Source of the DNA: Epilithonimonas hominis
Lineage (GTDB): Bacteria > Bacteroidota > Bacteroidia > Flavobacteriales > Weeksellaceae
DNA: 64,000 nt
Reading direction: 5' to 3'
Assembly: GCF_003730015.1 (NCBI RefSeq)
Contig: NZ_RJTU01000079.1
Span: 1 to 64,000 of the forward strand
Part shown: positions 21,802-24,321 of the stretch, piece by piece
How the letters are laid out: each line of letters begins with the position of its first letter
How positions within the stretch are numbered: the first letter of the stretch is position 1
Made by a program: the position numbers and the translations under genes
The notes under the pieces: model-generated
Databases searched by the model: none
Told to the model about the DNA's origin: nothing
Seen by the model: the letters and a program-made list of their open reading frames with translations, nothing else

Positions 21802-21967
21802 TTAATCTTAATTAATATAAAAATTGTTTCTCTATATTTCTTAGAAAATCAATCAGGTTGTATGTTGGATTATAATTTCGCAAGAGGTATGCCATTGGAA
21901 AAAACAATACAATTTGGCAGAAATATTATTAATAATTCTTATCTTAGTATCAATAAATAAAAATAAA

Positions 21968-22429
21968 ATGAAAAACTTACTTAGAATATTTTCTATTATT
22001 ATAATGATTTCAAGCTGTTCCTTCTATGGACAAGCACCATCCATCAACAAAAATGTGACTAATAATTCTTTCCGAGTAGAAACTTGGGGACAATTAGGAG
22101 CTGGAAATATTGTTGAAGATTATGAAACTGCGAAAGCAAAAACAAAAGACAAATCTAAACTCAAAGAATTGGTTTTAGATGCTATTTATAATAATGAGCA
22201 AGAAAAAAAAGCATTGGACGTTAAATCTTCTGAAAAAGAACAAATAATCAATAAATTAAAATATCAATTACAAAAGATTGAAGACAAGGATTCTTCTAAA
22301 TATAAAAAGGCTGACGAAAAATTACAAAAAGAACAAACAGAATACAATACTATAACTAGTAGATTGGTAAAAAATCTTAAGGATAGTAATAAACTCCAAG
22401 AAGAGTATCAGCAAATTACGGGAGACTAA
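21968..22429 (+). CDS. Small coiled-coil lipoprotein, unknown function
   Basis: I do not recognise this 153-residue product. It starts with a lipoprotein signal (hydrophobic stretch ending ISSC; Cys17 the expected lipidated residue). The mature part is charged, with heptad-like Lys/Glu/Leu patterns from about residue 65 to 150, so a long helix or coiled coil is likely. The ATG at 21968 is preferred over an upstream ATG at 21914 whose 18 extra residues would bury the signal peptide. Base composition is clearly more A+T-rich than lon, as in the adjacent accessory genes. It converges with the bacteriocin operon and ends in a strong bidirectional hairpin. Confidence 0.6.
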   Translation: MKNLLRIFSIIIMISSCSFYGQAPSINKNVTNNSFRVETWGQLGAGNIVEDYETAKAKTKDKSKLKELVLDAIYNNEQEKKALDVKSSEKEQIINKLKYQLQKIEDKDSSKYKKADEKLQKEQTEYNTITSRLVKNLKDSNKLQEEYQQITGD

Positions 22430-22462
22430 TAAAAAGACTGTTTTTAAACAGTCTTTTTATTA
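22427..22462. terminator. Bidirectional terminator at the edge of the accessory island
   Basis: An almost perfect palindrome (TAATAAAAAGACTGTTT with AAACAGTCTTTTTATTA) overlaps the stop of the small lipoprotein gene. It has an A-run on one side and a T-run on the other and may also stop the convergent transcript. Confidence 0.75.
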
Positions 22463-22521
22463 GTCGAAGTTTTCCTAATGTTAATCATACAAGCTATTCT
22501 TAGATTTTATTTTAATTCTCA

Positions 22522-23175
22522 TTACTTATTGATTCTAATTTTTGACAAAGCAAAAAATTCAAAAGCAACAATCAATGGAAAAGAAAATGAAATTAATAAT
22601 ATTTTTAATGAGGGTTTATCAAAAATAAACATTCCAAAAGTCAAATATAGAAATGTCGGAATCAAGAAAAATATTAAAATGTTTATTTTAAATATTTTTA
22701 TAAAATAAAAATAGAATAAAGGAATTATTAGATATAAAAAATATAAAACAATATAGGGTTCAAATTTAAGAAACATTACAAAAAAAGATTGAAGTAATAT
22801 TGGCGAAAGTCCAACGAATAAACTTAATTTAGAATGAAAATCAAATCGAGATAGAATTAACCCTATCGAAAAAGAAATAAAATAAAGTGGAAATTTTCTT
22901 GTGAAAAATAATTCTAAAACAAAATCATTTTTTGGTGCCGAATTGATTATTAAGAAGAGTAACACTGATATTACAAAAACAAAAATTTTATCTTTAAAAA
23001 AATCTTTATTTAAACCTAACAAAAAATATAAAACTATTTGCCCAACGAAAGGTATAATTGTATAAATATTTTTGTTGTAGAAAATATTAATTAGGGCTAA
23101 CAATGTTAACCCTAAAATTAAGAAACATTTATTTTTTTTATTCAATTTATACAAAATTAAGGAACATAAATACAA
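22522..23175 (-). CDS. Multi-pass membrane protein, candidate bacteriocin partner
   Basis: A 217-residue, very hydrophobic protein with about seven membrane helices and mostly basic loops; I recognise no family motif and there is no CxxC. It has no ATG near its N-terminus: the best start is a TTG at 23175, inside the last 19 bases of the bacteriocin gene, so translation is probably coupled to it. Other TTG codons close by are possible. Gene order and overlap suggest a role tied to the bacteriocin-like protein, for example immunity or export, but this is inference only. The coding sequence is extremely A+T-rich, consistent with acquired DNA. Confidence 0.6.
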   Translation of the reverse strand: MYLCSLILYKLNKKNKCFLILGLTLLALINIFYNKNIYTIIPFVGQIVLYFLLGLNKDFFKDKIFVFVISVLLFLIINSAPKNDFVLELFFTRKFPLYFISFSIGLILSRFDFHSKLSLFVGLSPILLQSFFVMFLKFEPYIVLYFLYLIIPLFYFYFIKIFKINILIFFLIPTFLYLTFGMFIFDKPSLKILLISFSFPLIVAFEFFALSKIRINK

Positions 23176-23804
23176 TAAGCGTCACAAGGCTCTCCATTCC
23201 ACCATCCACAACCTGTTGTGGTTGAAACACATCCGCCAGCTTTACAAGGGTTGTCCATCGTACACATAGTACACCAGCTTGTGTAACAATCTCCACTACC
23301 AGTACCTCCTCCTGGAGTCGGATCCGGCATTTTGTGAGAAATAAAATATGGTGTTAATTGCTTTGTCGTTTTGTCAAAATTACTAAGATTTTGAAAATAT
23401 AATTTCTCCTCATAATCTGAAAATCCTCCTTTTTGAGCAACAGTAGTAAGTTTTTGAAGGTCGCTTAACCCATTAATAGTTAGCTCTTTTATAATTTGCT
23501 CAACCACAAACTTTTGCTTTTTGTTCAAATCAACATTTTGCAAAATAAATTCCATTTTATTTATCCATAATTTCTTTTTTTGTTCATCATTCATTTTATT
23601 ATAAACAAAATATCGAGAATAGTTATCATATTTTACAAATTCATTTCTATCAGAGTATTTTGTCAAATCAGGATTTTTAGCATAAGATTCTTCTATAGTC
23701 TCTTCTAAATGTTTTTGTTGGCTAATTATTTCCTGCTCTCGACAAGAGTGAAAGGATATAATACCAATTGTCATCAAAATAAAAGTAATAATTTTTTTCA
23801 TCAT
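23157..23804 (-). CDS. Fulvocin C-related bacteriocin precursor (lipoprotein)
   Basis: A 215-residue protein with three parts. Residues 1-21 are a lipoprotein-type signal (ending FHSC). Residues about 22-155 are helical and charged, with LWINKMEFILQNVDLNKKQK typical, as I recall, of Bacteroidota proteins annotated fulvocin C-related. A Pro/Gly linker (158-171) leads to a C-terminal domain of about 44 residues with eight cysteines at 173, 178, 181, 187, 192, 199, 207 and 211. Fulvocin C of Myxococcus fulvus is likewise a peptide of about 45 residues with eight cysteines, and both share a TGCG-W-C-x-C like end. Toxic activity is not proven. A membrane-protein gene overlaps its 3' end and an XRE regulator is divergent. 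Confidence 0.7.
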   Translation of the reverse strand: MMKKIITFILMTIGIISFHSCREQEIISQQKHLEETIEESYAKNPDLTKYSDRNEFVKYDNYSRYFVYNKMNDEQKKKLWINKMEFILQNVDLNKKQKFVVEQIIKELTINGLSDLQKLTTVAQKGGFSDYEEKLYFQNLSNFDKTTKQLTPYFISHKMPDPTPGGGTGSGDCYTSWCTMCTMDNPCKAGGCVSTTTGCGWWNGEPCDAYCIYVP

Positions 23805-23829
23805 ATAAATTTTTAATTGTTAATAATTA

Positions 23830-23837
23830 CAAACTTA
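23830..23837 (-). promoter_or_regulatory. -7 promoter box for the bacteriocin operon
   Basis: The minus strand reads TAAGTTTG (TAnnTTTG), 26 bp upstream of the start at 23804. The palindrome at 23877-23902 lies about 40-70 bp further upstream, suited to control from a divergent operator. Confidence 0.45.
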
Positions 23838-23876
23838 TTGAAGTTTTCTCCTATTATATCAACAAAAAACTCACAA

Positions 23877-23902
23877 ATTTTGTGTAAATATTTACACAAA
23901 AT
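23877..23902. promoter_or_regulatory. 26-bp palindromic operator between bacteriocin and XRE genes
   Basis: A perfect inverted repeat: half-site ATTTTGTGTAAAT followed directly by its reverse complement. A third half-site, CACAAA at 23872-23877, forms a second, overlapping inverted repeat with TTTGTG at 23879-23884. The palindrome abuts the -7 box of the XRE gene (23905-23912), so occupancy should block that promoter. Autoregulation by the XRE protein is the simplest reading. Confidence 0.65.
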
Positions 23903-23904
23903 CT

Positions 23905-23912
23905 TAACTTTG
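23905..23912 (+). promoter_or_regulatory. -7 promoter box for the XRE regulator
   Basis: TAACTTTG matches TAnnTTTG, 16 bp upstream of the ATG at 23929 and 2 bp downstream of the palindrome. Confidence 0.5.
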
Positions 23913-23928
23913 CTTTAAAACATAACCG

Positions 23929-24255
23929 ATGATAGTTGGAAATAACCTGAGAAGACTTAGAATAAAATCTAAAAAGTCTCAACAAGACATTGCAGATTTA
24001 TTAGAAATAGACCGTCGTACTTACATTAATTGGGAGAACGAAGAAAATGATGTGAAATCTGAGTATATACCTAGAATTGCAAAAATTTTTGATGTAGATA
24101 TAAAAGATTTATTTCAAGACTCTAAAAGTAATATTCAAAATATTAATCAAGAAAATAAAGACAATTCAATTAATGGGGTTGTTTTTGTCTTGACTGATAA
24201 AGAAAATATTGATAGATTAACTGAAATATTAAAGATTAGTTTAGAAAAAAGATAA
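23929..24255 (+). CDS. XRE-family helix-turn-helix regulator
   Basis: DNA-binding protein of 108 residues. The XRE helix-turn-helix occupies about residues 5-62 (NNLRRLRIKSKKSQQDIADLL, then DRRTYINWENEE and IPRIAKIFDVDIKDLF). The C-terminal 45 residues are Asn/Lys-rich and may dimerise. It is divergent from the bacteriocin operon with a 26-bp palindrome at its own promoter, so it is probably an autorepressor that also controls the operon. Low GC content matches the operon. Confidence 0.85.
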   Translation: MIVGNNLRRLRIKSKKSQQDIADLLEIDRRTYINWENEENDVKSEYIPRIAKIFDVDIKDLFQDSKSNIQNINQENKDNSINGVVFVLTDKENIDRLTEILKISLEKR

Positions 24256-24321
24256 TTTTCTAAATAAACCTTTTCAAAGTTCTGAACTCTGCAAGGGTTT
24301 TGAAATTTTATTTGAATTGAT

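Follow-up and report, generated by a model that had tools for sequence, protein, structure and literature searches.

A fulvocin C-related lipoprotein gene with a divergent XRE switch, inserted between lon and sufS: a candidate antibacterial-peptide cassette in Bacteroidota

The 64,000-nucleotide stretch of DNA analysed here (the window) carries, between lon and sufS, an AT-rich insert in which a fulvocin C-related lipoprotein gene is followed by the gene of a seven-helix membrane protein and is divergent from an XRE regulator. The interpretation we prefer, to which we would give an even chance, is that of a mobile antibacterial-peptide cassette made up of a lipid-anchored toxin with eight cysteines, a membrane immunity protein and an XRE switch. 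The peptide family itself is known, and what is new is a cassette that is driven by a switch, moves between sites and changes partners. The cassette is real, inserted and fast-evolving, and the proposed function is plausible.

The window comes from a genome assembly of 2.92 Mb in 94 contigs (G000). In all 22 other genomes of the genus lon and sufS are adjacent, and the gap between them measures 195 to 871 bases, against 2544 bases in the window. By blastn, the first 142–148 bases or so of the window gap are matched by the gaps of all 22 genomes, and the last 60 or so by those of five (L050, L051, L052, L062 and L066); because both ends match in this way, the insert can be placed at about 21920–24262, with approximate ends at 21919–21925 and 24256–24263. 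Its GC content is 25.4%, compared with 38.3% for lon and 37.5% for sufS, and is the lowest in the window for its length (none of 617 segments of the same length, taken in steps of 100, is as low). A first-pass annotation had described the three genes as a block more AT-rich than its flanks; the composition bears this out, but the real block is larger than was drawn, starting near 21920 and including, near lon, a lipoprotein-type open reading frame (ORF) of 153 aa on the plus strand (21968–22429). This ORF matches no Pfam or NCBIfam family above cut-off and has relatives in none of the 17 precursor loci described below; its body is charged and coiled-coil-like. The four longest lon–sufS gaps of the other genomes, which are those searched for ORFs, carry different accessory genes, and the gap is a small insertion hot spot in the genus. 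The genes seen there (L058, L061, L063 and L069) encode a lipoprotein in three cases and an XRE-type protein with hydrophobic stretches in one.

The precursor gene occurs in two of the 23 genomes of the genus, that of the window and one other (G115), in which the three-part arrangement proposed from the window recurs once more, with the XRE gene again divergent from the precursor. Protein identity between the two genomes falls from 98% for SufS to 83% for the XRE protein and 28% for the precursor, a gradient expected of fast-evolving toxin–immunity cargo behind a stable switch; in global DNA alignments it is 80% for the XRE gene, 69% for the intergenic region, 56% for the precursor gene and 41% for the membrane gene. 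The gene downstream of the G115 precursor encodes a membrane protein of 109 aa with three hydrophobic peaks, whose relation to the window's membrane protein goes undetected by hhalign (probability 0.2%). That the membrane partners vary behind a stable switch suggests a toxin and its immunity protein. The G115 cassette lies elsewhere, next to a gene that by eye encodes an amylomaltase-like protein; this second site is empty in the remaining 22 genomes of the genus, where the amylomaltase-like gene is directly followed by the next gene on that side. So patchy a distribution, with two different insertion sites, argues for mobility. Two copies of a palindromic, terminator-like repeat, AACCCTTTCAGAGTTTNNAACTCTGAAAGGGTT, bracket the G115 cassette 1.5 kb apart. 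The repeat is found 5–14 times per genome (forward strand, at most three mismatches; e.g. L016:6097–6125) in six genomes of the genus (G000, G115, G037, G008, G123 and G054) and 0 times in reversed controls. A degenerate form lies near 24265–24300 of the window, which holds no copy at three mismatches or fewer, and insertion of the window cassette through this repeat is not claimed.

The precursor (P0001; 23157–23804, minus strand; 215 aa) consists of a signal peptide, the lipobox FHSC with its cysteine at residue 21, a leader domain, helical in a low-confidence AlphaFold2 model, a Pro/Gly linker and a tail of 44 residues (172–215). After Cys21 its cysteines stand at residues 173, 178, 181, 187, 192, 199, 207 and 211, so that the lipoprotein-type precursor with a Pro/Gly linker and an eight-cysteine end domain is as first described; among the 62 window ORFs of at least 60 aa, it is the sole one with at least six cysteines per 45 residues. 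Against the NCBIfam model NF033852 (‘bacteriocin fulvocin C-related protein’) P0001 scores 69.6 bits, with a curated cut-off of 35 (E 5.2e-19), and the match spans residues 66–211 and profile positions 3–149 of 150; no other of the 18,950 NCBIfam models, and no Pfam family, exceeds its cut-off. Membership of the fulvocin C-related family is thereby upheld, and the view of the gene product as a lipid-anchored, probably regulated precursor is likewise backed. The lipobox predicts anchoring in the envelope. As for export to the surface, the portion of PMC5080379 available gives the signal of Bacteroidota surface lipoproteins as C-X-K-(D/E)2-X, or a polar residue and an acidic run; the window's C-R-E-Q-E-I fits the former poorly, which counts against the preferred interpretation.

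The tail has the GCG core (TGCGWW) and ends in the spacings 6,7,3, as in its relatives. Searched alone, it matches NF033852 at positions 110–149 (19.8 bits, E 0.0011), and the sequence that we take to be that of fulvocin C matches at positions 108–148 (29.5 bits, E 1.1e-6); both are fragments that score under the 35-bit cut-off, and the shared end of the profile, together with the full-length match, favours a bacteriocin cassette. The cysteines are spaced 4,2,5,4,6,7,3 in the window tail as against 1,6,5,4,6,7,3 in that of G323. Twelve of 13 tabulated tails have eight cysteines and that of G115 has six; the table leaves aside G802 and G424, one of which is available only as a frame translation near a contig end while the other is frameshifted. 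All twelve end in 7,3, and the other eleven start with a spacing of 1, whereas the window tail lacks this first CxC pair, one of its cysteines lying elsewhere than in the usual CxC. In G115 the cysteines aligned to the fourth and eighth are both absent, which suggests that these two may pair. With such changes the tails of the window and of G115 may not keep the same disulfides, and the deviant cysteines speak against the preferred interpretation. The tail is modelled at a pLDDT of 25–31 by single-sequence AlphaFold2, too poor to read a fold, and the best matches of profile A1 among solved structures reach E 0.22 and 0.26. A degenerate-motif search of genome contigs for the fulvocin C gene itself gave one match, among respiratory-complex genes (by eye), which was set aside as chance.

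With NF033852 at E ≤0.001, matches came from 3 of the 296 genomes sampled in the family, 6 of 395 in the order and 4 of 395 in the phylum, and, in the families of G847 and G323, from 4 of 88 and 8 of 204, respectively; the samples overlap, and none of 14 control genomes gave a match. These amount to 17 distinct genomes, of which 15, the window's and G115 included, have the fulvocin-type tail. In nine of the 15 (G844, G847, G901, G1023, G1051, G1078 with two copies, G1100, G1103 and G1125) the gene after the precursor codes for a multi-helix membrane protein whose C-terminal domain is of the thioredoxin type, with a CxxC, and it overlaps or closely follows the precursor gene (gaps of –17 to +28, one of 252); this association favours the antibacterial cassette. 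Eight of these partners were scanned against Pfam and NCBIfam, G1051 lying outside the scan: those of G1078, G1023, G1103 and G1100 pass Pfam thioredoxin or AhpC-TSA cut-offs, those of G844 and G1125 match these families below cut-off, and those of G847 and G901 match no Pfam thioredoxin type and are included on their alignment and CxxC only. A match to the NCBIfam ResA model, far under its cut-off, is shared by the six family-matching partners. A profile built from ten partner proteins matched none of 322 control ORFs, a redundant set drawn largely from one bacterial family; its ten test matches are its own training rows. The remaining six of the 15, one of them cut by a contig end (the membrane gene of G802), have no membrane-thioredoxin gene downstream, which weighs against the preferred interpretation. 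In one of them (G575) two genes on the divergent side match the partner profile, at E 1e-11 and 4e-10, and in the window and G115 the membrane partners lack a thioredoxin domain and no nearby gene matches the profile. A DUF1573 lipoprotein is encoded directly downstream in G323; in G1125, G1103 and, by eye, G1051 one is encoded behind the thioredoxin gene, and G424 has a DUF1573-like ORF by eye; the three DUF1573 proteins scanned against Pfam and NCBIfam match the OS_HP2 (seleno)protein model under cut-off. Since relatives have redox-type neighbours, oxidation of the tail outside the cytoplasm is suggested, and the membrane-thioredoxin and DUF1573 genes would offer a concrete maturation route for fulvocin-related proteins.

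The leader is also found with other tails. G1018 has three leader genes with a different, four-cysteine tail, which match NF033852 at positions 3–88, 3–88 and 3–87, below cut-off (two of the three were rescanned), and G215 has a frame-broken leader gene with a similar CxxC...GPC tail (loci L109 and L110 in G1018, L024 in G215). All four are followed by a gene for a protein of 272–291 aa, secreted by eye and not a thioredoxin, with no family above cut-off in the two scanned. Homologues lacking the cysteine tail, which the first-pass annotation had named as evidence against its reading, were therefore encountered in part, as leader homologues without the eight-cysteine tail in these two genomes. 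Because the leader is combined there with another tail and another partner, it looks like a carrier module whose partner goes with the tail, and a wider modular class is suggested.

The alternative that fares best, though we consider it rather unlikely, is that P0001 is a lipoprotein of the surface or periplasm, rich in disulfides but not toxic (a signal, an adhesin or a metal-binding protein), that needs redox partners in order to fold, the fulvocin name being misleading for most of the family. The dominance of thioredoxin-like and DUF1573 partners in the neighbourhoods speaks for it, as does the joining of the leader to a quite different tail. The bacteriocin status of the family reportedly rests on one peptide sequenced in 1981; NCBIfam names the fulvocin-related proteins bacteriocins, and full-text searches of the fulvocin literature found no Bacteroidota member that had been tested for activity, which supports the non-toxic alternative and counts against a toxin. 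In the parts of the sources available, fulvocin C is named in a list of myxobacterial RiPPs (PMC8708641) and in a keyword table (PMC12333140). The three-part arrangement is described in none of the titles and abstract openings listed by searches of the open full-text literature. Against a non-toxic lipoprotein stand the patchy spread, the two sites, the fast divergence and the unrelated membrane partners, all ill-suited to housekeeping, and the match of the fulvocin C sequence used here to the same segment of NF033852.

A Kyte-Doolittle scan of the membrane protein (P0002; 22522–23175, minus strand; 217 aa) shows seven hydrophobic peaks. The seven-helix gene said to overlap the 3' end of the precursor gene by 19 bases is present, with this overlap only if translation starts at the TTG at 23175, the first ATG, GTG or TTG of the frame. 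By rough arithmetic, an open frame of 218 codons at 20% GC has a chance of about 3e-10, and this hints at selection acting on P0002. The protein has neither a Pfam or NCBIfam match nor a CxxC motif; a search of the 296 family genomes returned itself and one weak match of 51 residues, and relatives were found neither in the 17 loci around precursor genes nor in viral contigs. Co-occurrence of the same membrane gene with homologues, proposed at first as a check, did not hold up: P0002 is absent from the other loci and the G115 partner is unrelated. As P0002 has no relatives, a role in immunity is conjectured from where the gene lies and how variable it is, which counts against the preferred interpretation. 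It is also conceivable, but quite improbable, that P0001 is a toxin while P0002 is an export or folding helper that takes over from the thioredoxin partner's membrane half. P0002 does occupy the position of the membrane-thioredoxin gene of the relatives, and shows weak pairwise scores to the G847 and G901 partners (reached by 7 and 14 of 300 shuffles, respectively). Homology to their membrane half, plausible by eye, is unsupported by profile comparison (over 24 columns the probability is 2.5%, at E 0.019, while the best of 30 shuffles reaches 2.0%), and this and the lack of a CxxC argue against a helper.

The regulator (P0003; 23929–24255, plus strand; 108 aa) is a short XRE/Cro-type protein that matches HTH_19 with 44.9 bits (cut-off 30.2). 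The perfect palindrome reported between it and the precursor gene was found at 23877–23902 (26 bp, 13+13, 100% complementary) and is a candidate operator; its 24-base core occurs once in the 64 kb at three mismatches or fewer, and in none of 100 shuffles. The Bacteroidota –7 box has the consensus TANNTTTG, which is matched by a –7-like box of the XRE promoter, TAACTTTG (23905–23912, plus strand), and by a box of the precursor promoter, TAAGTTTG (23830–23837, minus strand). The palindrome ends 2 bases from the former and lies 40–65 bases upstream of the latter, so autorepression would be more secure than an effect on the precursor. G115 keeps both promoter boxes, with a match to TANNTTTG at –23 in the XRE promoter and TAAATTTG where the window's precursor box aligns, and part of the operator without its perfect symmetry; this restriction of the perfect palindrome to the window counts against the preferred interpretation. 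A half-site, TGTGYAAAT, was seen by eye upstream of the window and L030 genes; G115, L027 and L028 have part of it.

Co-occurrence of the XRE gene with fulvocin homologues had also been thought worth surveying; a P0003 relative is present in one of the 17 loci, that of G115. P0003 itself has relatives (E ≤1e-25) at 20 places outside the window. Of the 246 family genomes, 20 have such a gene, that of the window among them. The neighbours at the 20 places were read by eye on 1.5-kb flanks. At nine of the 20 places they accompany a short cysteine-bearing, mostly secreted-looking protein and a GLPGLI-family protein, the latter above the TIGR01200 cut-off in all nine; a tenth scanned neighbour, at L030, has no match, and there the relative stands with a secreted protein and a 194-aa neighbour. 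The nine are L029, L032, L033, L037, L038, L040, L043, L044 and L045, and the XRE frames of L029 and L033 contain a stop. Outside the scan, L036 has a GLPGLI-like ORF by eye. A divergent lipoprotein stands beside three relatives (L027, L028 and L035), the G115 relative lies beside its fulvocin cassette, and at five places (L031, L034, L039, L041 and L042) nothing obvious was seen by eye. These neighbourhoods are no more than suggestive of a link between P0003-type regulators and small secreted peptide genes, and possibly point to a wider peptide class of XRE relatives, cysteine-bearing peptides and GLPGLI proteins. At L027 (1959–2833) the XRE relative is divergent from a lipoprotein of 227 aa with no family above cut-off and a Gly/Ala-rich hydrophobic tail flanked by cysteines, followed by a 61-aa two-helix ORF, a layout like that of a bacteriocin and its immunity gene. 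A broader proposal, which we put forward as speculative and doubtful, is that in this bacterial family the XRE switch and its palindromic promoter form a stable, site-hopping chassis for swapped, mutually unrelated secreted peptides with cysteines and for the partners specific to each. Fulvocin-type lipoproteins would go with small membrane proteins and short peptides with GLPGLI proteins, and other lipoproteins would be a further kind of cargo; the whole would be a polymorphic, lipid-tethered or secreted antagonism system of Bacteroidota.

Two further explanations have little to recommend them. A defence or superinfection-exclusion cassette, in which the regulator, the lipoprotein and the membrane protein block phage entry, would suit an XRE-controlled, AT-rich insert in a gap that holds other small accessory genes in four genomes, but is very improbable, as P0001 has no relatives in plasmids, phages or viral contigs and the redox partners of its homologues would be left unexplained; an origin from phages or plasmids was dropped on the same searches and on those of viral contigs with P0002. 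That the locus is a decayed remnant, with its redox partner lost, P0002 encoded by an unrelated adjoining gene and a tail that has ceased to fold, would account for the deviant tails of the window and G115 and for the want of a nearby thioredoxin-partner gene, but is scarcely credible when the frames have stayed open in both genomes, with promoter-like boxes and the divergent XRE gene still in place, and when the P0002 frame is so long for its base composition.

In an antibacterial cassette, the precursor would be exported, lipidated at Cys21 and held at the envelope by its leader, while the tail, folded as a small domain that is rich in disulfides and resembles fulvocin C, would damage neighbouring related cells, either on display or after release; a protease for release was not found, which counts against this scheme. 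P0002, if co-translated with the precursor, would protect the producer, and the XRE protein may bind the palindrome, repress its own promoter and set the expression of the precursor. In most relatives the membrane protein with its thioredoxin-type domain, sometimes with DUF1573, would mature the disulfides, for which the genus of the window, with no dedicated redox partner, presumably uses general disulfide enzymes. Family membership, the order of the genes, the insertion, the exchange of partners and the redox genes beside relatives can be read from the sequences; display at the surface, release, killing, immunity, the part played by the redox proteins and the sign of the regulation are inferred. 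The genomes of the window and G115, from close species that share the switch while their tails have diverged and their membrane partners are unrelated, offer a natural pair for reciprocal killing and immunity.

Among known systems, the nearest is the fulvocin C-related family itself (NF033852; fulvocin C of Myxococcus fulvus), with which the window shares a leader and tail over the cut-off, the GCG core and the eight cysteines; it differs in its rearranged first CxC, in the absence of the thioredoxin partner that most tail-bearing relatives have, and in being XRE-switched. Gallocin A, in the part of PMC10100652 available, needs disulfides and a thioredoxin-domain protein; as a disulfide bacteriocin with a co-located thioredoxin (BlpT) and immunity gene (GIP) it resembles the relatives of the window locus, but it is a streptococcal, unrelated two-peptide system with a double-glycine leader and ABC export, and the window cassette is without a thioredoxin. 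The SitA proteins, according to the available part of PMC5562445, are myxobacterial lipoprotein toxins with an immunity gene (SitI) immediately downstream. Their tails are nuclease or tRNase domains that act in the cytoplasm, unlike the 44-residue disulfide domain of the window. By architecture, the window cassette can be likened to them in its lipobox, N-terminal carrier, variable C-terminal domain and small downstream gene: the leader is shared with G215 and G1018, and both the tails and the downstream genes differ there. The proposed chassis with swapped cargo would be comparable to SitA in its logic.
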